From a virus, in IMG/VR virus record IMGVR_UViG_3300044695_002757, positions 1 to 55,423 of that record: a stretch of DNA of 55,423 nucleotides. One strand, given 5' to 3'. A program made the position numbers and the translations under genes. This document shows positions 3,208 to 28,364 of the stretch, piece by piece. The notes beneath the pieces were generated by a model that was not told the origin of the DNA, did no database searches, and saw only the letters and a list, made by a program, of their open reading frames with translations. The stretch's first letter is position 1. Every line of letters begins with the position of its first letter.

Positions 3208-3708
3208 ATGATAAAACTTGATGATGTTGTTGAATTTATTCACAACCCTTTAGCATACGAACAAAAACTAGTTTCATTAATAAACACTAAGGGGGAGCAA
3301 ATCCTCCTTAGTTCTTTTAGCGAGCTATATAATGAAAACTCTACTATTAAAGTAGAAGGCATGGAAAAGTTTTGTGTTAACATATACAATAAGTGCCAAT
3401 ATCTATCTTTGAAATATGATCACAGTGGTCCAATAACGTGTCATGCGTTTATTGCAAAAGATGACGCACCGTCATTCCCACTACACACTGATCCTGATGA
3501 CGTTATAATCTTATGTGTTGAAGGTACTAAAAAGCTTCTCATTAAGAATGAATATATAATACTAGAAGCTGGTGATGATGTCTATATTCCCGCAAATACG
3601 CCACATCAAGCTTTCAATGAAAAAGCTTCATTTACATTGAGTTTTGGTTTAGAAAAATTTCTTAAAGATAAAGCGAAGTTATATAATGAATTGGATGTTC
3701 TACCTTAA
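3208..3708 (+). CDS. Cupin/JmjC-like iron oxygenase candidate
   Basis: A 166-residue protein with one cupin core. FPLHTDPDD supplies H93 and D95, and IPANTPHQAF supplies H133, which gives the 2-His-1-carboxylate triad of JmjC/cupin-type 2OG-Fe(II) oxygenases. GDDVYIPANTPH is the classic second cupin motif. Family members hydroxylate proteins or small molecules using O2 and 2-oxoglutarate. A 2OG-binding Lys or Arg is not assigned, so a non-catalytic metal cupin remains possible. It is the first gene of the overlapping run of tailoring genes, begins one base after the fibre gene, and overlaps the first radical SAM gene by 23 bases, which suggests coupled translation. The substrate is unknown; a phage protein is inferred. 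Confidence 0.6.
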   Translation: MIKLDDVVEFIHNPLAYEQKLVSLINTKGEQILLSSFSELYNENSTIKVEGMEKFCVNIYNKCQYLSLKYDHSGPITCHAFIAKDDAPSFPLHTDPDDVIILCVEGTKKLLIKNEYIILEAGDDVYIPANTPHQAFNEKASFTLSFGLEKFLKDKAKLYNELDVLP

Positions 3709-4744
3709 AACGACAGAGACATGTAATCTTAATTGTCGTCATTGCTTTACAAATGGAATAAATGGACCAAAGATATATTGGGACAAAGACAAAGTAAAAG
3801 ATTGGGTCGACAGATTTATTCAAACAACAAATAAAGATGATACGATCCATTGTGAATTTCACGGCGGTGAACCATTTTTAGTTGATGTTGAAGAAATGAA
3901 AGCAGTGCATAATTACTGCAATACTCTCCATCCTAATATGACTTGGGGAGCAACTACTAATTTAGTTTTTAAATTAAAAGAAGAGCATAAAGACTTTATT
4001 AAAAACGAATTAGGTAATCGCTTAGGAACTTCTTGGGATCCTAAGATTAGATTTGATAATGATAAGCAATTAAAGCTTTGGTTGGATAACCTTAAAGAGT
4101 TATTGGCTCAAGGTACAACTATCAGATTGTTTATCAGTGTCACTAAAGATACTATTGCAATAGAACCAATTTACTTGTTGACTTGGATTAAATCTCTAGG
4201 TGTTCAAGAAGTATCATTTGAAAGATTGACTGGGAATGGAAGTGCTTTAAAGCATCCTGATATATTCCCGTCAAATATAGAACAAGATGCATGGTTTTTA
4301 AAAATGCATGAGCAGTCTATATTATATGAGACTAGAGATTGGTTTGATAATGACTTCTTAGAAACGATTTACTCTAAGTTTGAAACTGGATTTACTAAGG
4401 GCGGCACATTTTGCAGAGATTGCGAAGAAAAGATCTTTACATTAAATGCAGATGGTTCTATTTCAGGTTGTCCTAATTCAGCACCTGAATTTCAGTTTGG
4501 GCATATAAATGACTCAGTCGAAGACCTTATAAATAGTCCTATAAGATTAGAAAATATGGCATGTGAAAAGAGCAGAAATGATTTTTGCTATTCATGTGAA
4601 GTATTTGAACATTGTGGAGGCGACTGTCATCAATTAGCTTGGCAAGATGACATTTGCGCAGCTCCAAAAAGCTTAATGAAATTATTATCAACACAAACAA
4701 AGAAAGTTTGGATGATTAAGGAAGAATATGGCAACACTAGATAA
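3686..4744 (+). CDS. Radical SAM/SPASM peptide-maturase-like enzyme
   Basis: A 352-residue protein. The radical SAM cluster motif CNLNCRHC gives C13, C17 and C20, and FHGGEP (about residues 58-63) is the SAM-binding GGEP motif. The C-terminus is a full SPASM-like domain: C243, C246, C262, C293, and C301-x2-C304-x5-C310-x3-C314 with C324, enough for auxiliary Fe-S clusters. SPASM enzymes typically modify ribosomally made peptides or protein side chains. The gene overlaps the preceding cupin gene by 23 bases and the next gene, which encodes the (CHxS)3-tailed protein, by 17 bases. An alternative start is ATG 3695. The overlap with a Cys-tailed protein makes an enzyme-substrate pair the leading inference. 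Confidence 0.85.
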   Translation: MNWMFYLKTTETCNLNCRHCFTNGINGPKIYWDKDKVKDWVDRFIQTTNKDDTIHCEFHGGEPFLVDVEEMKAVHNYCNTLHPNMTWGATTNLVFKLKEEHKDFIKNELGNRLGTSWDPKIRFDNDKQLKLWLDNLKELLAQGTTIRLFISVTKDTIAIEPIYLLTWIKSLGVQEVSFERLTGNGSALKHPDIFPSNIEQDAWFLKMHEQSILYETRDWFDNDFLETIYSKFETGFTKGGTFCRDCEEKIFTLNADGSISGCPNSAPEFQFGHINDSVEDLINSPIRLENMACEKSRNDFCYSCEVFEHCGGDCHQLAWQDDICAAPKSLMKLLSTQTKKVWMIKEEYGNTR

Positions 4745-5300
4745 TCCCATTAACCCGCAGAATATCGCAAATCGATATTCAGATTACGTAACTGCTGTTG
4801 CTAATGCAGGAATTACTTGGGGCAATAATGCAAAGCCCTTTGAAGAAATGGATGTTAATCAATTTGGCGGAGACACTAGTGGTCGCGCTATTAGTATTAC
4901 AGGCAACAGTATTGGTGAAGTTGGTACTGTAATAACAGCTATAAACATTTACAATACTTTAGTAACTGAAACTGCAACATACACAAATATTAGAAATTTG
5001 CGTGCAATACTAAACGTTGAGGGCGGCGGTGGTAACACTGGTTCACGCCCAAATCCTGGTGTTATATACGATGGCACAGCTGTTGCACATATGAATGCTG
5101 ACTATAGACAAAGTATCGGTACTCCTGATGCTTCAAACGTTTCATCTGGTGATGAAGTTACGAGTGCCAATTTACAACAGTTCTTTACTAACTTAGCAAC
5201 TAGTTATAATACAGCAAGAGGTACTACGACTACTGTTCAAACTAACGTATGTCATGCTTCTTGTCATTCATCATGCCATGGTTCTAGAGGAAGAAGATAA
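4728..5300 (+). CDS. Putative modified virion protein/RiPP-like precursor with (CHxS)3-RGRR tail
   Basis: A 190-residue protein that matches no family I recognise. Residues 1-170 are an ordinary Asn/Thr/Gly-rich sequence with a predicted helical stretch near SANLQQFFTNLATSYNTARG. The last 16 residues are CHAS CHSS CHGS RGRR: three perfect CHxS units with C175, C179 and C183, closed by a basic end. No other Cys is present, so all thiols sit in this tail. It overlaps the upstream SPASM radical SAM gene by 17 bases and is followed two bases later by an unknown gene of the same block. The context suggests a substrate for post-translational modification. Alternatives are a metal-binding tail or a simple structural protein. 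The tail is seen; the modification is inferred. Confidence 0.6.
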   Translation: MATLDNPINPQNIANRYSDYVTAVANAGITWGNNAKPFEEMDVNQFGGDTSGRAISITGNSIGEVGTVITAINIYNTLVTETATYTNIRNLRAILNVEGGGGNTGSRPNPGVIYDGTAVAHMNADYRQSIGTPDASNVSSGDEVTSANLQQFFTNLATSYNTARGTTTTVQTNVCHASCHSSCHGSRGRR

Positions 5301-5302
5301 CA

Positions 5303-6019
5303 ATGAATTTAGTGAATACAATCGTTCCAATATCAATCGAAGATCTAAAAAAATACTTCACAGATAAAAACGTTTACTATATTATAAATTATAAAGATAG
5401 TAAACTAAAGGGTGCTAAGCTACTAACATATCTAAGTAACCTTGATATTCCTTGCAATATTGATTTAGCTAATTTAGATGAAGTTGAAAAATACGAACTA
5501 CTAGATGAATATTTCAAATCGTCTATGATCGTGAATATTCCTTCTCTTGAGTTTTTAGCAATGGATGTATTAAAAGAAGCTAAAGGATTAACTGCTGAGG
5601 TTATTCATCGAGACTTTATTGAATCACATGCAGAAATTTTAGAAACATGGATTACTAAACTTGATAGTCTTACAATTTTTAATATGAGCATTGTTGGTGA
5701 TAGCCATTTCGAAGAGTTCATCAAACAATTCCCTGTATCTGAAGACCAAGATTTAACTGGTGTAAATTTTATTAGTTTATTAAAACACACTGAGTTTTAT
5801 GATTTTTATAAAAAAATTGACAGATCAAAATTAAAATTTTATTCTCATTATTTTAAAGATTATATGTTTAAGGGTAAAAGTCTATTTTCATTCTGGGCTA
5901 ACGACAATAATCCATTATTTTTGTTGACATATGGAATCGCTGAAGGATTAGTAGATCCACAACAATATAATGAGGCTAAAAGACAAACCATAGAGGAATC
6001 AAATGTTACACTTATTTAA
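5303..6019 (+). CDS. Unknown protein of the radical SAM block (A)
   Basis: A 238-residue protein rich in acidic, aromatic and Lys residues, apparently mostly alpha-helical. It has a single Cys, no signal peptide, no membrane segment and no catalytic motif I recognise. It begins two bases after the (CHxS)3 protein gene, and its last 17 bases overlap the next unknown gene. Being locked between the candidate substrate and the second radical SAM enzyme, it could be a substrate-recognition or scaffold partner of the maturases, but nothing in the sequence proves that. Gene reality is supported by the tight fit and the long open frame. Confidence 0.6.
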   Translation: MNLVNTIVPISIEDLKKYFTDKNVYYIINYKDSKLKGAKLLTYLSNLDIPCNIDLANLDEVEKYELLDEYFKSSMIVNIPSLEFLAMDVLKEAKGLTAEVIHRDFIESHAEILETWITKLDSLTIFNMSIVGDSHFEEFIKQFPVSEDQDLTGVNFISLLKHTEFYDFYKKIDRSKLKFYSHYFKDYMFKGKSLFSFWANDNNPLFLLTYGIAEGLVDPQQYNEAKRQTIEESNVTLI

Positions 6020-7097
6020 TAAAACTTATCTAGAATTTGATGATAATATCGAAATCAATTTCGATCGCGTTGTTATTTCGAATCAATATGGAATTCCAAT
6101 GCATCAAGAATTGGATAAAGTTTCTTATGGTGAATTAATTCAATATGGTAAATCATACGATGAAGTTATATCGCCAGACATAATCGGGTTTGTAAAAACA
6201 TTAAAAGAGTTTAGTGATGCGTCCGGTAAAAAGATTATCATATATTGTGATAAAGAAGCATACAAGAAATTCATTGCACAGTGGTTTAAAATACTTTTAC
6301 CATTAGCAGACTATACAACATTTAAAACTATTATAGATCATACCATATACAATCAACGGATAGTTTCTAATACTCAATTATCTTCAGTCTATGCATTAAA
6401 TCAAACTACATTGTGGGAAAGTTTAGATGATTTAGAATCACATTGGTCAACAGTTAATAAACCAACCGATGCTAAAATAGTAGAATTTAAGTCACTTGGT
6501 TTAAATTTATCTTATGAGTTGCTATTAGCAGATTATCTTTCAGGTTCTACTAATTATGAAGTAGAACTTAGAAAGACAATGCATACATTTTTGCGTAGGT
6601 GGTTTAAAGAAGTATTTACTGATAATCGCCAAATGGTATTATTAAATATTGGCAATCATAGATTCCAAACCGCGCTTGGCATAGATGCGTCTACAATTGA
6701 TATTACTAGCGTAGATCCATTAGCAAATATTACACAATTAAGCGCTTATGCTGACGATACAATTTGGGAGCAACAGGGTATTTTTTGTGACTTAGAAGAT
6801 TTAAGTCAACAACAAATCGATGCGTTAACTTCAACTATCATGGACATCTGTGAAAAGTTTGAAGGTATGGAAGTTGATCGTTCTATGTTTTCAATATTTA
6901 ATTATCTGGGTGCAGCATCTAGAAATGAGTTAACTAAGGTTGAGATGGATGAACTATTAGACTTTATTATTGATAAACCATTTGATACCAATTTAGTTCC
7001 ACGCTTCGATTTTCAAAATGTTAACTTTGTATTAATGCTTTATTTCTTACGTCAAAAATATGAAAGTGCCGATTTAAGTAAATTTAAATTGGTATAG
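6003..7097 (+). CDS. Unknown protein of the radical SAM block (B)
   Basis: A 364-residue soluble protein with no recognised domain. The first third (for example KIIIYCDKEAYKKFIAQWF) reads as an alternating alpha/beta fold, and the remainder is helical and acidic. It starts inside the end of the preceding unknown gene (17-base overlap) and stops one base before the second radical SAM gene, so it is very likely translated with them. It has only two Cys (in IIIYCD and GIFCDLED) and no cluster motif, so it is not another Fe-S enzyme. An accessory role, or an enzyme of unfamiliar type, is possible. Confidence 0.6.
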   Translation: MLHLFNKTYLEFDDNIEINFDRVVISNQYGIPMHQELDKVSYGELIQYGKSYDEVISPDIIGFVKTLKEFSDASGKKIIIYCDKEAYKKFIAQWFKILLPLADYTTFKTIIDHTIYNQRIVSNTQLSSVYALNQTTLWESLDDLESHWSTVNKPTDAKIVEFKSLGLNLSYELLLADYLSGSTNYEVELRKTMHTFLRRWFKEVFTDNRQMVLLNIGNHRFQTALGIDASTIDITSVDPLANITQLSAYADDTIWEQQGIFCDLEDLSQQQIDALTSTIMDICEKFEGMEVDRSMFSIFNYLGAASRNELTKVEMDELLDFIIDKPFDTNLVPRFDFQNVNFVLMLYFLRQKYESADLSKFKLV

Positions 7098-7098
7098 C

Positions 7099-8151
7099 AT
7101 GCGTGATTATATCATTGAAAAAAAACGTGATCCAGAACAAGAATATACACTTCATTTATTTGAATATTGTAATTTAAGATGTTCTTTTTGCTGGCAAGAT
7201 CATGATAATACAGTAGGGATTGACTCAGTACTTGAGAAATTAATCCCTATTGAAAAATTCCTAACTACTGAAAAAAGTAGTTCAGTCGTATTTAATGCTA
7301 TGGGTGGAGAAGTATTTGCTCCACAAATATTTGATCAAAAGCTTTTACAAGCATACAAAGATTTATCACTCGGCATCAAGAATTTAGCAATCAAGTATAA
7401 TAAGACTGCTAAAGTTAATTGGGTAACTAATTTAGTTACTAACAAATATGACGAGATTGAAGAATTACTTAAGTATTCAAATGACATCGGTTTAAAAGCG
7501 GAGATCGTAACATCTTATGATCCACGTGGTAGATTTAACATAAACGATTTCGTGCAATTTAAACAAAGTATGGATTACTTTGGCGATAGAGTTACATGCA
7601 TTAGTATGCTATTATCTGCGCCAAATATTGAATACATTCTAAAAGATAAAGATCCGTATTTTAAAAAGCTTTATGATGAAGGCAAATACATCTACTTTGA
7701 TTATTATATGCCTGATGAAACAGCTGAGTCTCAATCACCCACTGATGAGCAAATGCTTAAAGCTTTTAAACATTTTATAGATAATTATCCAAAGGTAGAT
7801 CCTATTCGTGGTTGGATCGAAAATGATTTTAACTATGTTTCGTGCAGAACTAGTAAATTAGTTTTAGCTGATGGAACTATGTGCAATTGCGGCAACTTGG
7901 TTCAAGATGAGAAGTCTATTAAATTTTACTCGAGTAAAATTGAAGCGATGGATAACTCTAGGATTGAAGATAGTTTCCTTGAAAAATATAATTGTGCATC
8001 GTGTGAATATTTAGATCGTTGTGGTATGGGTTGCTTTATGCAACATGATTATAAATTTAGAGAAGAACTTGATGAGTGTGTCTACAAACTTACGCACAGA
8101 TATATCGACGATGTACGACTACGAAGAAGAGCAAAAGCCTCTATCAGTTGA
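7099..8151 (+). CDS. Radical SAM/SPASM-like enzyme 2
   Basis: A 350-residue protein. The radical SAM motif CNLRCSFC supplies C24, C28 and C31, and FNAMGGEVF carries the Gly-Gly-Glu of the SAM-binding loop. The C-terminal part has a separate Cys set: a CxC in GTMCNCGN, then C299-x2-C302-x5-C308-x3-C312 and C327, which is a SPASM/twitch-like auxiliary cluster domain. This layout is typical of enzymes acting on peptides or proteins. The preceding gene ends one base before it, and the following gene starts inside its 3' end. It differs substantially from the other three radical SAM proteins here, so it is not a recent duplicate. Confidence 0.83.
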   Translation: MRDYIIEKKRDPEQEYTLHLFEYCNLRCSFCWQDHDNTVGIDSVLEKLIPIEKFLTTEKSSSVVFNAMGGEVFAPQIFDQKLLQAYKDLSLGIKNLAIKYNKTAKVNWVTNLVTNKYDEIEELLKYSNDIGLKAEIVTSYDPRGRFNINDFVQFKQSMDYFGDRVTCISMLLSAPNIEYILKDKDPYFKKLYDEGKYIYFDYYMPDETAESQSPTDEQMLKAFKHFIDNYPKVDPIRGWIENDFNYVSCRTSKLVLADGTMCNCGNLVQDEKSIKFYSSKIEAMDNSRIEDSFLEKYNCASCEYLDRCGMGCFMQHDYKFREELDECVYKLTHRYIDDVRLRRRAKASIS

Positions 8152-8662
8152 AGTACCTACGCATATTGAAGTTTCTTTAGATACTGTTCCAACCGCACAC
8201 CCATATTTGCCTCGTCTTTGTGCTAGACAAGGTTATGTTTTTATGTGGCATACAACGCGCGATAAAGAACCTGATCTATATGAGTTATCACAAAGTGCAA
8301 AAAATGAAAAGCAATGGTTTACTACTAAAGATCTAAATGGTATTGAATTAGTCTTAGTATTGCTTCACGAATATGATGATGAAGTGATTATTGGGTGTGT
8401 TAAATCTGCAGGTTATTTGGCAAATAAATCTAACGAATATCTACGTGCGCTTTTAAAAGGCGCATGGAAAGATTTAATAGATATATTTGGGCATAAAAAA
8501 ATCATTTGTCCAAGTAGTTCCTATTTAGAACATGTACATTTATGCGTAAATCAAAAAAGAATACCGCATATGCCTTATCATAAGAAACTCATGATTAAAA
8601 ATAAGTTTCGTAAAGTGGGTTACTATTGGATTCGAGATGGACTTAATAATAAAACCAACTGA
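8111..8662 (+). CDS. Unknown protein of the radical SAM block (C)
   Basis: A 183-residue protein if ATG 8111 is used. In-frame upstream starts reach back to 8021 but would sit far inside the radical SAM 2 gene, so 8111 (41-base overlap) is preferred. The sequence is mixed alpha/beta with three Cys and several His (HEYDDEVIIGCVKS, YLEHVHLCVNQ, HMPYH). There is no membrane segment and no recognised motif. A GNAT-like or small recognition fold cannot be excluded but is not shown. It overlaps the third radical SAM gene by 26 bases, so it is coupled to its neighbours on both sides. Confidence 0.55.
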   Translation: MYDYEEEQKPLSVEVPTHIEVSLDTVPTAHPYLPRLCARQGYVFMWHTTRDKEPDLYELSQSAKNEKQWFTTKDLNGIELVLVLLHEYDDEVIIGCVKSAGYLANKSNEYLRALLKGAWKDLIDIFGHKKIICPSSSYLEHVHLCVNQKRIPHMPYHKKLMIKNKFRKVGYYWIRDGLNNKTN

Positions 8663-9665
8663 GAAGTGTAATTTCAAATGCACTTTTTGTTCTAGCACTC
8701 ACATCACAGATGACAAATCTGCTGAATTAGATCTTCAGTACGTATTTGATTTTCTAAAAAGATTCCCAGAAACAAACACAATTATCGTCAATGGCGGTGA
8801 TCCGTTAATGATGGATCCACAATACTATTGGGATATCATTAAACATTTAGATGATATTGATTCGCATGCAACCATATCATTCACTTCAAATCTTTGGCCG
8901 TTTTTAAAAAATCCAAATAAATGGAAAGAATTATTCAATCACCCGCGTATGGGAGTTACTACATCCTTTCAATATGGTGGTGGTAGATTAAAGGGTGACT
9001 TATCTGAATTTACAGAAGAAGACTTTTGGAAAGTATCAGATGCAATGCTTGAACATTGCGGATATCGACCAGACTTTATTTCGGTTATAACTGAAGAGAA
9101 TGCTAAAGACGCTATAAAGAATGTAGAACTTGCTAAGAAAATGGGAGTTGAATGCAAACTTAATTATGCTTTTTCTTCTGGTCCTCCTGTTAAGTTTAAA
9201 GGCATTATCATGGGACAAGAAGGTAAACCGTATATGCTTTCCGACATCTATGAGATATACGTAGAGATTTGGAAGCGTGGATTATCTGATTGGGAATTTA
9301 ATACTAAACAGATGATGAAACGATTAGTCGGTAAAGCAACCTGTTGTCCGCAAAATCGTGATTGCGATTCTGGTATTAGAACCTTACAACCTTCTGGTGA
9401 TTATTATTCATGTGGTGCTTTTGGTGATGATAGAGAATATTCAATCGACTTTAATAAAGAGATGAATGGTCCTAAAATATTGCCAATTAAGCACATCGTC
9501 GAATTACAAACCATGACAGATAGTTGTTATGAATGTCCAATGTTTGAGATTTGTAATGGCTGTAAAAAAACCATTAAAGATCATAAAGCATATAATATAG
9601 CAACTACACACTGCAAGAAAATGAAAACACTTGCGCCTGATATTTTAAAGGCTAATGGATTATGA
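8637..9665 (+). CDS. Radical SAM/SPASM-like enzyme 3
   Basis: A 342-residue protein. CNFKCTFC gives C11, C15 and C18, and IIVNGGDPLMM is the GGxP SAM-binding loop with Asp in place of Glu. The C-terminal auxiliary-cluster region includes CCPQNRDC, a single Cys in YYSCGAFG, then C297-x2-C300-x5-C306-x2-C309 and C326, which fits a SPASM-type domain. Substrate specificity cannot be read from the sequence. The gene overlaps the unknown gene upstream by 26 bases, and its stop overlaps the ATGATG start of the 2OG oxygenase gene, so enzyme and oxygenase are probably made together. Confidence 0.83.
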   Translation: MDLIIKPTEKCNFKCTFCSSTHITDDKSAELDLQYVFDFLKRFPETNTIIVNGGDPLMMDPQYYWDIIKHLDDIDSHATISFTSNLWPFLKNPNKWKELFNHPRMGVTTSFQYGGGRLKGDLSEFTEEDFWKVSDAMLEHCGYRPDFISVITEENAKDAIKNVELAKKMGVECKLNYAFSSGPPVKFKGIIMGQEGKPYMLSDIYEIYVEIWKRGLSDWEFNTKQMMKRLVGKATCCPQNRDCDSGIRTLQPSGDYYSCGAFGDDREYSIDFNKEMNGPKILPIKHIVELQTMTDSCYECPMFEICNGCKKTIKDHKAYNIATTHCKKMKTLAPDILKANGL

Positions 9666-10180
9666 TGGAAAAACAAATACTTGATAAAGGCTATTGCTGC
9701 ATTAGAGATGAAGAAGCTTTTCAGTTTATAGACATTTATTCAGTTAAGTGGTCTGAGCTTGGTGACATACCATTGCAAATGTGTGTACGTACACCAGAAA
9801 CACAAGTAGCACTATTGCAAACTCAAATGTGGCTTGGTGAGAAATATATTCGGCCAATCTTTGGTGATTATACGTGTAATTATGTAGATCTAGTTAATGG
9901 AATGGATGATAATGTATTCGATTGGCATAACGACTATGAAGAGAATAAAGTAAATCTTGGTATCCTATTGTATTTCAGTGATACAGATGAAGAGATCGGA
10001 AGCGGCATCGGGTTTAGACGTCCATTCACAACTGAGTCAACAGGATTCTTTTATCCTAAAGCAGGAGATGTGTGTGTAATTAATCACACCACCAATTTTG
10101 AACATAGAGTAACTAAACAGAAGATTCCATTACAAAGAATCGTAGCTAGCTTCCATTATTATGTTAACGCTCTCAATTAA
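9662..10180 (+). CDS. 2OG-Fe(II) oxygenase, prolyl-hydroxylase-like
   Basis: A 172-residue protein; ATG 9662 and ATG 9665 are both possible. WHNDY gives H89 and D91, NFEHRV gives H148, and R159 in QRIVASFHYY fits the 2-oxoglutarate carboxylate ligand, so the full HxD...H...R set of a double-stranded beta-helix oxygenase is present. LGILLYFSD and GFFYPKAGDVCVIN are the expected core strands. It would hydroxylate a side chain or small molecule using O2, Fe(II) and 2-oxoglutarate. Related oxygenases are common near tail genes of T4-like marine phages. It lies between radical SAM 3 and radical SAM 4 with overlaps on both sides. Confidence 0.75.
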   Translation: MMEKQILDKGYCCIRDEEAFQFIDIYSVKWSELGDIPLQMCVRTPETQVALLQTQMWLGEKYIRPIFGDYTCNYVDLVNGMDDNVFDWHNDYEENKVNLGILLYFSDTDEEIGSGIGFRRPFTTESTGFFYPKAGDVCVINHTTNFEHRVTKQKIPLQRIVASFHYYVNALN

Positions 10181-11075
10181 TCCTTGGTACTATTGCAACT
10201 TTGGATGTGAGTTTTGCTACTTAACTAAGGAGCAACTTGCAGACACTAAGCTACTTTCATTAGACGTGTTGAATGAAAGATTGGCTGAGATAAGCGCACA
10301 AAATCAGATTCAAATGGTAGATCTTTATGGCGGTGAACTTGGTTTATTACCTAAAGACTATTGGAATGATTTACTCGATTTGCTTCATGCATATCATATC
10401 TTTGATATTAATATGATTACTAATCTATCAATGGTGAATGAAATAACGACTGATGAAAGAGTATATGTCTCAGTAAGTTATGACTTCGACGCTAGAGAAG
10501 ATCATGAACGCGTGTGGAGAAACATGGCTTTATTAGAAAGACCATTCTCCATATTGATGTTAGCTTCCCCCGAACTGATTAAAAAAGATGTTGGTGAAAT
10601 GGTCACTATGTTGAACAGCTTAAACAACCTTGTATCAGTTGAGATTAAACCGTACAGTACAAATCAAGCAAATCAATTAGATGTAAACTTTATTCAGTTT
10701 GAAGAATTCGTCAAAATGTGGGTCATAAATACGGATAAGAAGTTTACTCTAACCAATGAATCTCTCTTACAGTCTGTGATTGATAAGCAGCGCAATAGTT
10801 TCTCTGATGACCACGTTTATATAACACCTTCTGGAAAGTATGGAGTTCTTGAGTTTGATTTAAATGATAATGAATTCTTCTTAGAATGCCAAACCCTTGA
10901 TGAATATACTGAGTGGTGTAAGAAAGAAAAGAACAGAGTAACAAAAAACATATTTTGTTCAAATTGCAATCACTTGGGGCATTGTTTATCAGAGCATTTG
11001 AGAGATGTAAAATCAATAGATAACAGTTGTAATGGATTTAAACGCCTGATTGATTGGTATAAGTATGAATTTTAA
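10161..11075 (+). CDS. Radical SAM enzyme 4 with Cys-rich C-terminus
   Basis: A 304-residue protein, the shortest of the four. CNFGCEFC gives C12, C16 and C19, and DLYGGELGLL is the GGE SAM-binding loop. The C-terminus has C266-x2-C269-x5-C275 and C290, a reduced SPASM or twitch-like cluster site. It starts within the 3' end of the 2OG oxygenase gene (20-base overlap) and overlaps the next oxygenase gene by 11 bases. The alternating order of O2-sensitive radical SAM and O2-dependent oxygenase genes is unusual and is kept through this block. Confidence 0.8.
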   Translation: MLTLSINPWYYCNFGCEFCYLTKEQLADTKLLSLDVLNERLAEISAQNQIQMVDLYGGELGLLPKDYWNDLLDLLHAYHIFDINMITNLSMVNEITTDERVYVSVSYDFDAREDHERVWRNMALLERPFSILMLASPELIKKDVGEMVTMLNSLNNLVSVEIKPYSTNQANQLDVNFIQFEEFVKMWVINTDKKFTLTNESLLQSVIDKQRNSFSDDHVYITPSGKYGVLEFDLNDNEFFLECQTLDEYTEWCKKEKNRVTKNIFCSNCNHLGHCLSEHLRDVKSIDNSCNGFKRLIDWYKYEF

Positions 11076-11718
11076 ATTTAATGTGCATGAGTTTTATGAT
11101 AAAGGTTATACTATTGGATTTGTTCCGAATGAACTAACTAAAAAATGCTTCGATATCATTAATAAAACTGATTGGCTAGATGATGGTTATTATCCAAACT
11201 ATGCTAAGTGGTCTGTGTTACCAAATTCACAAAACAGTATTGATGATTATTATGAAGAGATAGTTCGTGGTAGAATGTCTTATGGCAGATCTCCTATCGA
11301 TATAAAAAATCTTGCAAATGAGTTTATTGATTTAGACTTCTTTGAACCAATGAAAGATGTTTTAGTTAAGAAACAACATAAAGAATTTAGATCTATTAGA
11401 AATATTAAGCCATATAGTTTTGGTTTATGGAATGGTCAAGAGAATCTACCTTGGCATAATGATTTTAATGACACTACCGATTTTTTCATTCTAGCGTATT
11501 TCAATGAATATGAAACATGGGATAAATCTTGGGGTGGTCAAATACATATAGGTAAAAAAGGCGAAGATGATAATATTGTTGAGGTTGGTTTCCACTATCC
11601 CATCAGTGCGACCTTCATATGTGTCAATAATAGTAACCCCTTAATGCATCATAAAGTTTCTGCATGTGATCCTATGCGTAATAGATACACATTTGCATTT
11701 AGATATGTAATAGACTGA
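11065..11718 (+). CDS. 2OG-Fe(II) oxygenase-like protein
   Basis: A 217-residue protein from ATG 11065; an in-frame TTG at 11050 is less likely. PWHNDF gives H131 and D133. NPLMHHKV gives H195 or H196, and R207 in NRYTFAFRY fits the 2-oxoglutarate ligand. FFILAYFNE and WGGQIHIG resemble the core strands of prolyl-4-hydroxylase-type enzymes. The N-terminal 110 residues are an extra helical region that may bind substrate. It is not closely similar to the oxygenase at 9662, so the two probably act at different sites. It overlaps radical SAM 4 and is followed one base later by a small unknown gene. Confidence 0.65.
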   Translation: MNFKFNVHEFYDKGYTIGFVPNELTKKCFDIINKTDWLDDGYYPNYAKWSVLPNSQNSIDDYYEEIVRGRMSYGRSPIDIKNLANEFIDLDFFEPMKDVLVKKQHKEFRSIRNIKPYSFGLWNGQENLPWHNDFNDTTDFFILAYFNEYETWDKSWGGQIHIGKKGEDDNIVEVGFHYPISATFICVNNSNPLMHHKVSACDPMRNRYTFAFRYVID

Positions 11719-11719
11719 T

Positions 11720-12121
11720 ATGCAAGACTGGAAAATTAAACAAGAGCTATATCATCGCATGAATCAAATACATTCTGATGATTTAAATGATAAAGAAATT
11801 ATGCTTAGCAATGACATCGTAGATAACGCTATTCGCTATTTTAAAGAAACAAATATTGGTTGGATTTATCCAGCAAAGTCATACATGGTAGGAATCTGCT
11901 ATGCTCGATGGCTATCAGAAGAGTATGGCGGGCATCCTTTGGACTATCTCGAAGATGCAGAATTGTTATATGGTAACGATCCATATTTCGTGCAATATAG
12001 CACCGATCCCGCCTCTTATCATAAGATATTAAATAGTATTGGTGGATGGGAATTTGACCAAATTGGAATGGTTCCAGATGTTAAAGAATATTACAAAGCG
12101 GAGTTTATGATAGATGCTTAA
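11720..12121 (+). CDS. Unknown small protein of the radical SAM block (D)
   Basis: A 133-residue acidic, mostly helical protein with no recognised motif. Distinctive sequence includes GWIYPAKSYMVGICYARWLS and LLYGNDPYFVQY. It begins one base after the preceding oxygenase gene and overlaps the next oxygenase gene by 8 bases. I have an impression of similar short proteins in marine T4-like phages but cannot name a family. An accessory function for the adjacent oxygenases is only an inference from position. Confidence 0.55.
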   Translation: MQDWKIKQELYHRMNQIHSDDLNDKEIMLSNDIVDNAIRYFKETNIGWIYPAKSYMVGICYARWLSEEYGGHPLDYLEDAELLYGNDPYFVQYSTDPASYHKILNSIGGWEFDQIGMVPDVKEYYKAEFMIDA

Positions 12122-12680
12122 TTTGTGGTCAACTCCGTTTTTAATTAAGAAAAGCGACACTGAAATTCGAGAGCGATTCGTGTCTTATCTTTTACAAGAA
12201 TACGACCTTTTTAATCCTCCAAGCGATATCAAAGTAAACATACTTGAGGATAAATCAGAAGAAGTTCAAGAATTTGTCTCTAAGGTTATCAAACCGGCTT
12301 TTGAAGAGTTTTTAAATTCTAGTTTGAACCTCTCCATTTCTGACTGGAAGGGTTACAGTCTAAATGGTTGGATAACTGGATCTGGTCAAGATTACAGTAT
12401 GATACACCATAATCATTCTGGTGCACAGATATCTGCAGTTTTTTACCTACTATCTGAGGATGTAGAAAGGGGTGGTAAAATAGTATTCACAGACCCCCGT
12501 CAGAACGCCAATAGAGGGTATGATCCTAAATTTTCTAAGTGGTTCAGCCCGTTAGAAATTAAAGCAAAAAGCGGAGATATAGTAGTTTTCCCAAGTTATT
12601 TGTATCATTTCGTTACTACATATCAAAGCAATATTCGTATCGCTTTACCTGTAGATTTATTCTTATTCAATAGTTTGTAG
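12114..12680 (+). CDS. Putative 2OG-Fe(II) oxygenase (HxH type)
   Basis: A 188-residue protein. The core reads IHHNHSGAQISAVFYLL, then GGKIVFTDPR, then SGDIVVFPSYLYHFV. It supplies H99 and H101 (HxH rather than the usual HxD), H165 and R175. This pattern matches the small putative oxygenase family (TIGR02466-like) frequent in marine T4-like phages, where the second metal ligand position is His. Catalysis is therefore plausible but less certain than for the HxD proteins here. It is the last gene of the overlapping block; a 55-base gap with a late promoter box separates it from the fibre genes. Confidence 0.65.
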   Translation: MLNLWSTPFLIKKSDTEIRERFVSYLLQEYDLFNPPSDIKVNILEDKSEEVQEFVSKVIKPAFEEFLNSSLNLSISDWKGYSLNGWITGSGQDYSMIHHNHSGAQISAVFYLLSEDVERGGKIVFTDPRQNANRGYDPKFSKWFSPLEIKAKSGDIVVFPSYLYHFVTTYQSNIRIALPVDLFLFNSL

Positions 12681-24572: not shown

Positions 24573-26255
24573 ATGAGTATAGTGACTCCCAAAAAAATCT
24601 TCAGTATTCCAATCAATCCTAAACTTTCACAAGAAGAGTTTACGGCATTTTATCATTGGCTAGATCAGTACAAAGACTGGATTGCTGATGTGTACTTTAC
24701 ATCTAGAATAAACCCGTTCAATCAAGATGCGATGGGCGACGTCATCATGTTTAATCAAGATAAGGTTAACCTTATCGAGACAGCATTAAACATTCAAAAA
24801 TATCTTGGAATTAAAGCATCTGCAACCTTTAATAATATCCAAGTAGCTCCAACGCAAACAAATTTAGATACTTTTATTGTCAACTTTAAACCGTTGTACG
24901 ATGCAGGTATTCGTGTTGCAACTATCCCGCATACACATTGGATGGCTACTGGCCAAATTAAAGCTGCATTCCCAGAGTTATTTGTTAAAAATACCATACT
25001 AAGAAACGTAAGAAGACCTGCTGAAGTAGTAGCACTAGCCAAAGAAGGTTTTGATTATATTAACTTAGATCGTGATCTAATGCGTGATAGAGATGCTTTA
25101 GTTAGACTACAAGAAGCTAAGAAGTGGATTAAAGTAAACTTAGGTAAAGACATTCAATATAGTCTATTGGCTAATGAAGGTTGCTTAGGTGAGTGCCATA
25201 TGATGGATGAACACTTTGAATATAATAATACTCGTGGAGAAAAAGATCCATCTTACTTTAATTCTCCAATAAGTCGTATAAGTTGCCCAAAATGGGACGT
25301 TGAAGATCCAGCAGTTTATTTAAAGACCGCGAACTTTGCTCCGTGGAAAGCAGATTGGGATGAATACTTAGATTTGGGTATTGATGTGTTTAAGATGCAT
25401 GGAAGAGAAAGCATTGCCAGGTTGGGTGAGACCATGCGTAAAGTAGAAAGATACGTAGCAAATGAAGAAATATTAGATGATAATTTTGAAGACTTTATTA
25501 ATAAGGCTCAACTTACTGGTAAACCTATTAATATTTGGCGCGATAAGATTAAAAATTGCAAATTTGATTGTTGGGAATGTCAATACTGCGATAAGATTGA
25601 AGAGAAAAAAGACGAGTATGATTATACGTCTCTAACTAAACACGTCGTAGATTCTATTGCAAAGAGTGGTATTCCAAAGGTTAACATTAATATCAGTGGC
25701 TTAACTAGTTCGCGGGTTCAAACATTATTAAATGCACTAGCTTCAAAGTGTGGTTCCTATCTAGAGGTTGGATCTTATTTGGGTGCAACTGCAGCTGCAG
25801 TACTATATAAGAACCCCATTAAAGCATATTTTATTGATAGATGGGAACAACAAATTCAACCTGCTAATGATAACTTTCAAACGGAAGCTAATGATTATGA
25901 CACCTTTCTTTTGAATATTACCCCGTATGTAGATAAATCTGATGTAAAGATCTTTAGAGAAGACATGTTGAATGTTAACTTGAATGAAATAGATTCTAAA
26001 GTTGATATGTTCATGTATGATGGTCCACATGATGCTAAATCTACGAGTGATGCAATTAAATACTATTGGCCAGTCTTAGCTAATGAAGCTATCTTAATTT
26101 TTGATGATGCAAATTGGGAGACAGTTATTCAAGGAGTTAGAGACGGATTGAATGAAGTCGATGCTAAAGTAATCTATGAAAAGATGATATTGAATTCTGA
26201 AGAGAATCCACGAGAATGGTGGAATGGTTTATATATTTTGGTGATTAAAAAATGA
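24573..26255 (+). CDS. U32-like Fe-S TIM-barrel protein fused to a class I methyltransferase
   Basis: A 560-residue two-part protein. Residues about 1-340 resemble the U32 family (UbiU/UbiV/TrhP-like), with LLANEGCLGECHMMDE (C204, C208), C238, and a Cys cluster NCKFDCWECQYC (C329, C333, C336, C339) that could hold a [4Fe-4S] centre. U32 proteins include O2-independent hydroxylases. Residues about 365-560 are a Rossmann-like methyltransferase: LEVGSYLGATAA (397-408) is the SAM-binding motif I, FIDRW is motif II, and MFMYDGPHD and ILIFDDANW fit the TylF-like group. The fusion is unfamiliar to me. Its stop overlaps the halogenase start by 4 bases. The N-terminal assignment is less certain than the methyltransferase. 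Confidence 0.6.
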   Translation: MSIVTPKKIFSIPINPKLSQEEFTAFYHWLDQYKDWIADVYFTSRINPFNQDAMGDVIMFNQDKVNLIETALNIQKYLGIKASATFNNIQVAPTQTNLDTFIVNFKPLYDAGIRVATIPHTHWMATGQIKAAFPELFVKNTILRNVRRPAEVVALAKEGFDYINLDRDLMRDRDALVRLQEAKKWIKVNLGKDIQYSLLANEGCLGECHMMDEHFEYNNTRGEKDPSYFNSPISRISCPKWDVEDPAVYLKTANFAPWKADWDEYLDLGIDVFKMHGRESIARLGETMRKVERYVANEEILDDNFEDFINKAQLTGKPINIWRDKIKNCKFDCWECQYCDKIEEKKDEYDYTSLTKHVVDSIAKSGIPKVNINISGLTSSRVQTLLNALASKCGSYLEVGSYLGATAAAVLYKNPIKAYFIDRWEQQIQPANDNFQTEANDYDTFLLNITPYVDKSDVKIFREDMLNVNLNEIDSKVDMFMYDGPHDAKSTSDAIKYYWPVLANEAILIFDDANWETVIQGVRDGLNEVDAKVIYEKMILNSEENPREWWNGLYILVIKK

Positions 26256-27781
26256 TTAAGAAGATAAAAAATATTGTTATATTTGGTGGAGGAACAAGCG
26301 GTTGGTTAACAGCAGCTTATATGACAAACCGTTTAAACTTTCCATGTAATATCACATTGATAGAAAGTAAATCACTTGGACCTATTGGAGTTGGTGAAGG
26401 TACACAACCATTTACTTCTAGATTTTTACATGATGCGGGTTTAGAACCAAAGCAGTGGATGAAACCAGCGCAAGCTGCATTTAAATACGGCGTATTATTA
26501 TCTGGTTGGAATAAAGAACCATACTTTGTAGATAATGATTTCGTTGAAAACCATATCATGGGTCCAAACTTATATGCACACGACTATTTTATTCATAAAA
26601 CAAATGAAGAGTGGGTAAAATGGCAACCGGCTTATAGATTAGCTATGGCAAATAAAAGCCCTAAGCTTGGTGGTTATGATCATTCCATGTCTCTTCGAGA
26701 CTTTAAAGACTGGGGTGCGGTGCACTTTTCAGCATTTGATATATTAGATACTATCCACGATTTAATTAAAGATCGAATTACACATTTCGACACTAAGATT
26801 ACAGAGATAAAATCTAATGATGAAGGTATCGAATACTTATTAGATGAACAAGGTAGAAAACATACAGCCGATCTTTTTATTGATTGCACGGGCTTTGAAG
26901 CCAAGTTAATCAATAAAGAATTAAAAGTGCCTTTTATTGATATCTCTAGTATTCTTCCATGCGATAGTGCAGTTGCTATGCCTACACAATTTAAAAATCC
27001 GCAAGAAGAATGCCATCCATATACTAAAGCAACCACTATGACGGCTGGTTGGAGATGGACAATCCCAACATTCAAACAGATTGGCAATGGTTATGTGTAT
27101 TCATCTAAACATATTTCAGCTGAAGATGCTGAAAAAGAACTAAGAGATTCTATCGGCGAATATGATGCTAAAGCTCGTCATTTAAAAATGAGATGCGGAG
27201 CTTCTGAGAAGGTAGCACATAAGAATGTTATTGCAGTTGGATTATCTGCTGGGTTTGTAGAGCCTTTAGAAGCAACTGGTATTACATTCACTACTAAGAT
27301 CGTTGAAGCACTAACTAATGGGTTAAACCATCATAGCGGTATTTGGAATGATAATCTAATGAATGCATTTAATGCTGCATACATTAATATGGTAGTTGAA
27401 ATCATTGCGTTTGTTTGGGCTCACTATCATTATAGTGACAGGGATGATACTCCTTTCTGGCAAGAAATCAGAAACCAAAAAATAGAAGATGCGCCGCAGT
27501 ATATCCAAGAAATGTTTAATCACTTCTATCCTACACTACATCGTAGATTTTATATAGACGATAAGACCTCTGGTTTCCATAGTGGTCATTGGTTTAGTAT
27601 GTTACATGCCAATAGAGTGTATGATAACATTGAAAAACCTAAACTATCAGAAGAAGAGATGAAGTATGCTGAATACTATATTAAGTCAAAAACTGATGAG
27701 ATAGATAATGCTATAGAATATTTCCCAAATCATTATGAATTTTTGAAGGATTGGTATGAGAGAACCAGTAACGCTATTTAG
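26252..27781 (+). CDS. Flavin-dependent tryptophan-halogenase-type enzyme
   Basis: A 509-residue protein, normal length for the family. GGGTSGW (12-18) is the FAD-binding loop. K78 in AAFKYG matches the catalytic lysine that carries the halogenating species in PrnA/RebH. WRWTIP (267-272) is the WxWxIP halogenase signature, which excludes ordinary monooxygenases. GLSAGFVEPLEATGI (330-344) is the conserved flavin and substrate region with a Glu near the active site. Such enzymes use FADH2, O2 and Cl- or Br- to halogenate indoles, phenols or peptide residues. No flavin reductase gene is seen here, so the host would supply FADH2. The gene is translationally linked to its neighbours on both sides. 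Confidence 0.85.
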   Translation: MIKKIKNIVIFGGGTSGWLTAAYMTNRLNFPCNITLIESKSLGPIGVGEGTQPFTSRFLHDAGLEPKQWMKPAQAAFKYGVLLSGWNKEPYFVDNDFVENHIMGPNLYAHDYFIHKTNEEWVKWQPAYRLAMANKSPKLGGYDHSMSLRDFKDWGAVHFSAFDILDTIHDLIKDRITHFDTKITEIKSNDEGIEYLLDEQGRKHTADLFIDCTGFEAKLINKELKVPFIDISSILPCDSAVAMPTQFKNPQEECHPYTKATTMTAGWRWTIPTFKQIGNGYVYSSKHISAEDAEKELRDSIGEYDAKARHLKMRCGASEKVAHKNVIAVGLSAGFVEPLEATGITFTTKIVEALTNGLNHHSGIWNDNLMNAFNAAYINMVVEIIAFVWAHYHYSDRDDTPFWQEIRNQKIEDAPQYIQEMFNHFYPTLHRRFYIDDKTSGFHSGHWFSMLHANRVYDNIEKPKLSEEEMKYAEYYIKSKTDEIDNAIEYFPNHYEFLKDWYERTSNAI

Positions 27782-28364
27782 AGCTGACTTATTTAGTTAT
27801 GCAAACATAGGTACACCAGAGCAGAGGCAAGAGTTAATCGACAGATTGTTAGCTCTTAAAGCTTCTGGTGCTAGGGATATTAATGAATTAACTAATAACG
27901 AAGGTTGTTGGAGATATTCTTTTCCAGTGACAGATTGTGAATGGTTAAATAACGCATTAAGCGTTATAATGAATGACGCATTTACATATTATGCAAATCA
28001 ACCCGGTAGTAGAATCAGAACACCAACTGAAGAAAACAAAATAAAACTTGGGAGTTGGTGTAATATTAATGAGAAATATGCTAGGAATGTTTATCATGCA
28101 CACAAAAGTTCTATATTCTCATGTGTATATTATTTACAGGCCACAGACACTGGTAGATTAATCCTTACCAATCCTGCTAATGTATTAAATGATTGTAGTG
28201 ATTTTGCTCCGTACACTAGAGACTTTTTCTTTCTCCCCAAAGATGGTGATTTAATCCTTTGGCCTTCATGGATTCCGCATGAAGTAGAACCCAATATGTC
28301 AGATAGACAACGAATTAATATAGTATTTGATATTGATGTGCCTTTCATATATGAACCAAAGTGA
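27756..28364 (+). CDS. Putative 2OG-Fe(II) oxygenase (HxH type)
   Basis: A 202-residue protein. VYHAHKSSIFSCVYYLQ supplies H114 and H116, GRLILTNPAN is the core strand, and WPSWIPHEVEPN supplies H175, with R186 as a possible 2-oxoglutarate ligand. It has the same layout as the protein at 12114 and fits the TIGR02466-like small oxygenases of marine phages. It starts inside the halogenase gene (26-base overlap) and overlaps the next oxygenase gene by 14 bases. Activity is likely but the HxH ligand set leaves doubt. Confidence 0.6.
   Translation: MREPVTLFRADLFSYANIGTPEQRQELIDRLLALKASGARDINELTNNEGCWRYSFPVTDCEWLNNALSVIMNDAFTYYANQPGSRIRTPTEENKIKLGSWCNINEKYARNVYHAHKSSIFSCVYYLQATDTGRLILTNPANVLNDCSDFAPYTRDFFFLPKDGDLILWPSWIPHEVEPNMSDRQRINIVFDIDVPFIYEPK

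Follow-up and report, generated by a model that had tools for sequence, protein, structure and literature searches.

The locus raises the question of why a dense set of radical SAM enzymes and iron oxygenases lies among virion genes, and on which substrate these enzymes act. In the window (the whole stretch of DNA that was analysed, 55,423 nt), positions 3208-12680 hold 13 tightly packed genes amid T4-like genes for the sheath, tube, portal, protease, scaffold, major head protein, and terminase (Table 1). The block encodes four radical SAM enzymes, one JmjC-like cupin, three 2OG-oxygenase-like proteins, four conserved unknowns, and one tagged protein. Nine of the 12 junctions overlap and the other three are gaps of 1-2 nt. 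The original prediction had described this block, its largely overlapping frames, and its T4 virion setting, and the main elements are found where it had placed them. It had listed five unknowns, but only four are counted here (starting at 5303, 6003, 8072, and 11720). For hyp133, the ATG at 8072 is a more probable start than the GTG at 8021.

Table 1. Coordinates of the cassette genes, the tag, and the adjoining fibre gene in the window.
Feature	Length	Position	Strand	Matches and remarks
Tail-fibre-like protein	365 aa	2109..3206	+	PHROG tail-fibre matches; weak PF11962 Peptidase_G2, E 0.0017
Cupin/JmjC_2-like Fe(II) oxygenase	166 aa	3208..3708	+	PF08007; HxD...H intact
rSAM_A, radical SAM/SPASM enzyme	352 aa	3686..4744	+	phrog_1802 E 6e-73; probable dedicated tail maturase
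Tail protein	190 aa	4728..5300	+	Folded N-domain and invariant C-terminal tag; proposed substrate/virion component
Tag CHASCHSSCHGSRGRR	16 residues	5250..5297	+	Directly before stop codon; proposed modification site
p20767	238 aa	5303..6019	+	phrog_20767 E 2e-84; candidate adaptor/chaperone
hypX	364 aa	6003..7097	+	Present in 47/49 cassettes
rSAM_B	350 aa	7099..8151	+	phrog_1802 E 2e-52; 7 conserved auxiliary Cys
hyp133	196 aa	8072..8662	+	Present in 25/49 cassettes
rSAM_C	342 aa	8637..9665	+	phrog_1802 E 7e-61; 8 conserved auxiliary Cys
ox1, 2OG-Fe(II) oxygenase-like	172 aa	9662..10180	+	PF13640 E 0.0018, below cut-off; HxD...H...R
rSAM_D	304 aa	10161..11075	+	phrog_1802 E 2e-46; 4 auxiliary Cys, at most one extra cluster
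ox3, 2OG-oxygenase-like	217 aa	11065..11718	+	PF13661 only E 0.07; HxD...H pattern
p20737	133 aa	11720..12121	+	phrog_20737 E 3e-51; present in 43/49 cassettes
ox2, 2OG-Fe(II) oxygenase	188 aa	12114..12680	+	PF13759 E 2e-12; phrog_81 E 1e-23

A fixed tag on variable proteins

The product of the ‘Cys-tailed’ gene, 4728-5300, has CHASCHSSCHGSRGRR as its final 16 residues. This tag follows the consensus CHxSCHx[SNA]CHx[SNA]R[GSA]RR-COOH and is carried by 167 distinct proteins, in all of which (167/167) the end falls exactly 16 residues after the first Cys. Ten of the 16 positions, i.e., three Cys, three His, the first Ser, and three Arg, are invariant in a set for which the search pattern preset some residues, and the loci collected from rSAM_A first agree with the resulting tag. 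The mean column identity over the whole alignment is 22%, as against this invariance; the N-terminal domains are often unrelated and form groups without detectable similarity to one another, all bearing the constant tag. Synonymous codons vary freely in the tag across relatives and therefore selection acts on the peptide. The window holds a single match to the tag, with 0 expected.

The N-domain of the tail protein is predicted to be a well-folded domain of 170 residues (AF2 pLDDT 88 for the protein), and its fold is common to gp170, the tagged homologue of phage Atu_ph07. Sequence and fold searches of the PDB found no solved structural relative. A tblastn search with the whole protein found nothing among deposited phages, the N-domain having diverged too far and the tag offering too little length; its relatives were reached instead through synteny and a DNA pattern. 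A second architecture consists of paired tagged proteins of ~128 aa, for which no relation to the main N-domain was detected. A cytochrome-c-like reading of CxxxCH was dropped, as heme-attachment genes are missing and the phage product is cytoplasmic.

Radical SAM enzymes, oxygenases, and conserved unknowns

The CxxxCxxC motif is kept in every homologue of the four radical SAM enzymes (rSAM_A 108/108, rSAM_B 88/88, rSAM_C 75/75, and rSAM_D 69/69), and the eight auxiliary Cys of rSAM_A are kept in 107-108 of 108. Against the SPASM model TIGR04085, rSAM_A scores 32.5 bits, above the cut-off of 27, and rSAM_B and rSAM_C score 21-23 bits, below the cut-off, yet they possess 7-8 conserved auxiliary Cys. 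rSAM_D has no TIGR04085 match and only four conserved auxiliary Cys, and is therefore not a full SPASM enzyme. Hence, the four SPASM enzymes of the original prediction stand as four radical SAM enzymes, three of them (A-C) with 7-8 auxiliary Cys and one, rSAM_A, passing the SPASM model by score.

The cupin matches PF08007 JmjC_2 at 37.6 bits (cut-off 22), with HxD...H kept in 100/100 homologues. Known JmjC_2 oxygenases of the RoxA/MINA/NO66 kind hydroxylate Arg or His in proteins; the cassette cupin differs from them in being short and phage-encoded, with a single cupin core beside rSAM_A. The match of ox2 to PF13759 reaches 47.6 bits (cut-off 27). The catalytic residues of ox1 are H 61/61, D 60/61, H 61/61, and R 58/58 in its homologues. 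In ox3 an HND...H is seen in the sequence, and the final His is kept in 14/14 homologues. One cupin and three 2OG-like genes had been foreseen, and they are recovered with PF08007, PF13759, a weak PF13640 match, and a very weak match for 11065-11718.

The model of p20767 has an AF2 pLDDT of 92, and sequence and fold searches gave no convincing PDB match. No family match was found for hypX in profile searches, and a PDB sequence search gave nothing usable.

Linkage across phages and bacteria

A search with rSAM_A, independent of the tag, yielded 356 relatives, and the best 80, with at least 61% identity to the window, were examined. Among these, the tagged gene lies directly downstream of rSAM_A in all 75 phage loci with enough flank (75/75). 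In 49 distinct cassettes, the cupin, rSAM_A, rSAM_B, rSAM_C, and p20767 are present in 49/49, and rSAM_D in 47/49. The block is not a chance assembly, because its gene order recurs in 49 distinct cassettes and its catalytic residues are near-invariant. The original prediction had pointed to co-occurrence of these genes as a check, and both the pairing of tag with rSAM_A and the recurring cassettes provide it. In ten phage records of 222-490 kb, CHxxCHxxCH occurs exactly once per record, at the cassette, and each record has 4-6 phrog_1802 matches, nearly all within the cassette.

Cassettes are also borne on Bdellovibrionota chromosomes, where they adjoin S74 fibre proteins; two of the flanking S74 proteins have prepilin motifs. 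Nearly all bacterial tag matches placed exactly at the C-terminus occur with radical SAM genes, and those elsewhere in a reading frame occur with none; most matches away from a C-terminus look like chance hits in repeat-rich sequence or in the wrong frame. Four to nine radical SAM enzymes and several iron oxygenases accompany the tag. The constant set is the cupin, rSAM A-D, and the tagged protein. Two additions are lineage-specific. The FLC6/SURPRISE13 cassettes enclose a pair of dihydrofolate reductase genes, which one author group assigned to pyrimidine synthesis (PMC11898562), and a tryptophan halogenase is encoded in the window and adjoins rSAM_D in one relative.

Fibre neighbourhood

A homologous fibre C-terminal domain is found immediately upstream of the cassette in 71/76 loci. 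In Atu_ph07, mass spectrometry defines a virion-protein cluster, given as ‘CDS 170-215’ in the relevant passage of PMC6102473. The tagged homologue gp170 is the first gene of that range, and gp171 and gp172 (rSAM_A and the cupin) likewise fall inside it; the presence of gp170 in virions, as read from the cluster boundary, is partly shown. In pelagimyophages, radical SAM cassettes are likewise reported from a tail-fibre island, the ‘host recognition cluster’, where they are among the variable parts; the passages of PMC7029224 on them name no substrate or system. The mosaic adhesive trimer (MAT) fibres of Bdellovibrio are S74-terminated predator fibres (PMC10769870), and S74 proteins likewise flank the bacterial cassettes. 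However, these flanking proteins are smaller, two have the prepilin motifs, and radical SAM enzymes are absent from the MAT account. Bacterial ‘VWNAVWND’ proteins of ~200 aa resembled the phage fibre C-terminal domain, but comparing the profiles gave a weak result (E 0.01, probability <5%) and therefore no homology is claimed.

Comparison with known maturation systems

The His-Xaa-Ser system (HxsA/B/C/D) also places radical SAM proteins, two in that case, beside a repeat protein. In contrast to its His-Xaa-Ser repeats, the tag here has three CHxS repeats and an RxRR end, and the system is phage-borne with cupin and 2OG enzymes. The scores do not support membership (rSAM_A against HxsB, 25.7 versus 370 bits; rSAM_C against HxsC, 28.0 versus 267.9), and among the matches listed for the tail protein and for those unknowns that were part of the ten proteins scanned, none was to HxsA or HxsD at E ≤1. 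Of the named enzymes, rSAM_A and rSAM_C score best as relatives of the ranthipeptide maturase PapB, the sulfatase-maturase, and the dynobactin enzyme DynA, at 35-56 bits versus cut-offs of 340-450. These are likewise radical SAM/SPASM enzymes, with a peptide or protein as substrate. Membership of the PapB family was rejected at 55.6 versus 340 bits. The tag lacks Trp as well as the Asp/Glu that PapB-type links would use, and the cassette, unlike those systems, joins four radical SAM enzymes with oxygenases. The Cys-rich repeat tail is reminiscent of FibroRumin-type RiPPs; TIGR04135, the only NCBIfam match of the tail protein, has a cut-off of 45 bits and scores 13.7.

Proposed maturation system and its alternatives

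The cassette is likely to mature, in a RiPP-like manner, the C-terminal tail of a protein of the virion or the attachment apparatus. Two features are RiPP-like: the presumed substrate gene is encoded beside the maturases at 75/75 rSAM_A loci, and a short conserved core (10/16 tag positions invariant) stands on a variable remainder. Counting against this reading, the enzymes score far under the curated cut-offs of known peptide maturases, and family profile searches found no peptidase, exporter, or recognised RRE domain. The phage protein-modification system of the original prediction, expressed with virion genes, gains strong support from comparative genomics, which singles out the product of 4728-5300 as the putative substrate (tag in 167 proteins, 75/75 linkage), and modification of the tag by the cassette enzymes is highly likely.

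Recognition of the tag would fall to rSAM_A, encoded beside the substrate, and may rely on the invariant RxRR end; p20767, hypX, and p20737 could serve as adaptors or chaperones. rSAM A-D, the cupin, and the 2OG oxygenases would then modify the three CHxS repeats in several ways, most likely by forming Cys thioethers and/or, at the His-x-Ser spacing, His-to-C-beta links, together with hydroxylation of His, Arg, or Ser; any one bond type is, by itself, less likely than not. The product would be a rigid, possibly metal-binding end. The modified protein would join the virion beside the tail-fibre module, its end meeting the host envelope, and action of this end at the point of host contact is slightly favoured.

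The same layout, with a substrate gene by radical SAM/SPASM maturases and a short repeated C-terminal core, is that of a RiPP cluster, and the tag might be cleaved off and released during infection as an antimicrobial or superinfection-exclusion peptide, with the N-domain only a leader or carrier. This is unlikely, as family profile searches found no peptidase or transporter in the cassette (four genes of which are unknowns), the N-domain is modelled as a well-folded domain rather than a short leader, gp170 borders the virion cluster given in PMC6102473, and fibre genes adjoin the cassette.

Alternatively, the tag may be the unmodified, metal-binding end of a virion protein, the enzymes acting elsewhere, e.g., on the fibre, whose gene they also adjoin, or on a host protein. 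Cys3His3 is a plausible set of metal ligands, and in known spike tips Fe or Zn is coordinated by His and Cys. Yet the linkage of tag to rSAM_A is strictly one-to-one in phages and bacteria, and Ser, Arg, and the placement exactly at the C-terminus are fixed as firmly as Cys and His, which makes this reading quite improbable. Auxiliary metabolism, in the form of a small-molecule or nucleotide pathway that uses the tagged protein as its carrier or scaffold, could accommodate the dihydrofolate reductase pair with its pyrimidine assignment and the halogenase; such extras are, however, lineage-specific, and the constant set includes no conserved scaffold-forming or nucleotide enzyme, so that it is very improbable indeed.

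Meaning for phages and predatory bacteria

A set of about a dozen genes, present in many large phages and a few predatory bacteria, thus very probably remodels the Cys-His-Ser-Arg tail of a neighbouring particle protein. Searches of an open-access collection of 5.4 million papers brought up neither a published description of this cassette system nor a virion protein matured by radical SAM enzymes, and to our knowledge no such virion protein has been reported. There is about an even chance that the system represents an unrecognised class, in which a multiply cross-linked C-terminal end is built by radical SAM enzymes on the attack apparatus of bacterial killers and acts at the contact with the Gram-negative envelope, the tag and cassette being common to T4-like, phiKZ-like, and Rak2-like large phages and Bdellovibrionota.

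Cultured phages with a tagged protein include Atu_ph07 (gp170), DT01 (QTH80265.1), and FLC6 (BCM95108.1), and the key claim could be tested on their purified virions. A near-fixed 16-residue tag and its enzymes stay linked in unrelated large phages and also in predatory bacteria. If the proposed maturation is true, it would be a new, undescribed route for maturing the parts that viruses use against bacteria, would give new peptide chemistry a substrate and a set of enzymes that are defined, would suggest a new chemistry by which the host is attached to or entered, and would be one device common to phages and predatory bacteria.

Organization of the cassette

The cassette consists of 13 plus-strand genes in the order cupin, rSAM_A, tail protein, p20767, hypX, rSAM_B, hyp133, rSAM_C, ox1, rSAM_D, ox3, p20737 and ox2, with nine of the 12 junctions overlapping and the remaining three gapped by 1-2 nt. 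T4-like morphogenesis genes (sheath, tube, portal, protease, scaffold, major head protein, and terminase) make up the remainder of the window, which bears out the original prediction of a gene block set inside T4 virion genes. The unknowns predicted there are present (p20767, hypX, hyp133, p20737) but number four, not five, and the four supposed SPASM enzymes (rSAM_A-D) are all radical SAM proteins, of which rSAM_D lacks the full SPASM Cys set. All four match phrog_1802 (E 6e-73 to 2e-46). Among the oxygenase-like proteins, the cupin passed the PF08007 JmjC_2 cut-off and ox2 that of PF13759, while family matches were weak for ox1, which retains HxD...H...R, and very weak for ox3. A halogenase and an oxygenase gene also lie in the virion cluster of the window (see table), and a halogenase follows rSAM_D in another locus (L262).

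Coordinates of the cassette and associated features
Feature	Location	Strand	Remarks
Cassette	window 3208-12680	+	13 genes
Tail protein ('Cys-tailed' gene)	window 4728-5300	+	C-terminal end VCHASCHSSCHGSRGRR
Halogenase, directly followed by oxygenase	window 26252-28364		flavin-dependent tryptophan halogenase (PF04820, E 4e-96); 2OG-Fe(II) oxygenase (PF13759, E 6e-17)
Tail protein	L121:7817-8515		CH motif repeated several times at its end (HSSCHSNVVCHSSCHDSCHSNVVCHSSCHDSCHSARGRR)
Atu_ph07 rSAM_D	L006:18138-19055 (NC_042013.1 116009-116914)		annotated solely as truncated hypothetical protein gp164
Dihydrofolate-reductase-like gene pair	L005:18406-19583; L009:18319-19532		inside Chiangmaivirus phage cassettes
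B12-binding-type radical SAM protein	L255:3629-5311; L256:13568-15280; L259:4866-6743		bacterial cassettes; PF02310 below cut-off, PF04055
~100-127 aa protein	L254:14431; L256:9211; L259:9038; L261:7222		near each of four bacterial cassettes

A conserved tag linked to rSAM_A

Five deposited jumbo phage genomes (SURPRISE13, FLC6, Atu_ph07, Phosso, and DT01) have, directly after rSAM_A, a gene that encodes a different body with the same end as the tail protein, e.g. DFCHSSCHASCHNSRSRR; this C-terminal stretch of 16 residues is termed the tag. Its DNA pattern matched at least 119 stretches in IMG/VR, and rSAM genes were present in 121 of the 126 tag-bearing loci listed, several of the five exceptions being short or truncated stretches. 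Because the DNA pattern had part of the tag preset, a reverse search was started from an rSAM_A alignment, which found 356 relatives; among the best 80, the tag was encoded downstream of rSAM_A in all 75 loci with sufficient flank, usually by the next gene, with a distance of about 1 kb in a few loci. In each of ten phage records of 222-490 kb, a single CHxxCHxxCH was found, located at the cassette; phrog_1802 matches numbered four to six per record and lay almost entirely within the cassette.

A stop codon directly follows the tag in all 167 distinct proteins, and 10 of the 16 positions are without any variation. The others are restricted, with x mostly small, S/N/A ending repeats two and three, and G/S/A between the Arg residues. 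The Cys, His, Ser, and Arg codons interchange freely and therefore selection acts on the peptide, not on the DNA.

The bodies split into groups without BLAST similarity to each other. In profile comparison, some bacterial groups were linked to the main phage one (E about 1e-5 to 1e-6 for a single comparison, probability 83-90%), but neither the FLC6 form nor the paired ~128-aa form showed such a link. The body in the window is predicted to be a compact 170-residue domain (pLDDT 88) that resembles Atu_ph07 gp170 in a viral model library (E 4e-6) and had no match in a PDB search. Its fold is common to three Myoviridae sp. ctijX18 proteins of 500-660 aa (BFVD A0A8S5USJ8, A0A8S5USJ7, A0A8S5USV2). 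A second architecture (L114, L069, L054, and about 20 more loci) has two tandem ~128-aa tagged proteins, with rSAM_A-D plus several extra paralogues (rSAM_E) and up to nine radical SAM genes per stretch.

Enzyme set and proposed modification

Among 49 distinct cassettes with full flanks, gene order is nearly constant; the cupin, rSAM_A, rSAM_B, rSAM_C, and p20767 occur in all 49, rSAM_D and hypX each in 47, and p20737 in 43. CxxxCxxC is present in every homologue of rSAM_A (108), rSAM_B (88), rSAM_C (75), and rSAM_D (69), with eight, seven, eight, and four conserved auxiliary Cys, respectively. Likewise, the cupin catalytic triad is intact in 100/100 homologues, and nearly all ox1 homologues keep the HxD/H/R set. 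For Atu_ph07 rSAM_D, the six-frame match reaches further upstream than the gp164 annotation and includes the N-terminal part.

The known products of SPASM enzymes include Cys thioethers, three-residue cyclophane links have the i to i+2 spacing seen in His-x-Ser, and JmjC_2 relatives hydroxylate His or Arg. We think that the rSAM enzymes and oxygenases act one after another on the tag, whose three CHxS repeats may gain modifications of such kinds; rSAM_A would come first, since its gene almost always adjoins that of the tail protein, the proposed substrate. The nearest named models of rSAM_A and rSAM_C, all far below cut-off, are the peptide/protein maturases PapB, sulfatase maturase, and DynA, and the best solved relatives of rSAM_A by sequence are radical SAM proteins, anaerobic sulfatase maturase among them. 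Alternatively, the cassette enzymes may serve a small-molecule pathway, or the tag may be released as a peptide or form an unmodified metal site.

Genomic place in phages

In 71/76 phage loci, the gene immediately upstream of the cassette encodes a fibre protein whose C-terminal domain is conserved. Mass spectrometry of Atu_ph07 particles placed most virion proteins in gene clusters, one of them CDS 170-215 (PMC6102473). Since gene numbers match between that study and the record (gp198 portal, gp204 prohead core) and the tagged protein is gp170, we infer from the published bounds that gp170 marks the edge of this cluster. A pelagimyophage study independently assigns rSAM cassettes to a 'host recognition cluster' (PMC7029224).

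Single cassette genes appear in phage papers as 'radical SAM' or 'Fe-S oxidoreductase' (PMC8066314, PMC5468394, PMC8541153, PMC11898562); no description of the tag, its rSAM linkage, or a virion-maturation role was found in open-access papers. That rSAM maturases can be encoded next to a substrate bearing a short core is already known in principle; a conserved phage system of such maturases with a virion-type substrate would be new.

Cassettes in bacteria

The exact C-terminal tag was found in about a dozen contigs among 85,000 genomes, nearly all with the cassette, and in 6/369 genomes searched within the phylum of the Halobacteriovoraceae genome. Some of the dozen are themselves phage-like contigs inside MAGs. 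On three long contigs (382, 228, and 78 kb), the neighbouring genes are ordinary cellular ones, for example, 3-hydroxyacyl-CoA dehydrogenase on the 382-kb contig. The named carriers are Halobacteriovoraceae, Bdellovibrionaceae, and Bacteriovoracaceae MAGs. The B12-binding-type radical SAM protein of bacterial cassettes was not seen in phage cassettes. The ~100-127 aa protein, which in most cases has a Tat-like twin-Arg start, is possibly linked to export.

Peptidase_S74 fibre proteins adjoin four bacterial cassettes; in two of these proteins, a prepilin N-methylation motif scored over cut-off. S74-terminated surface fibres are known from the predator Bdellovibrio (PMC10769870). On the sole basis that contact with the Gram-negative envelope is common to phage and predator, the tagged protein is proposed to have a role at this contact in both alike.
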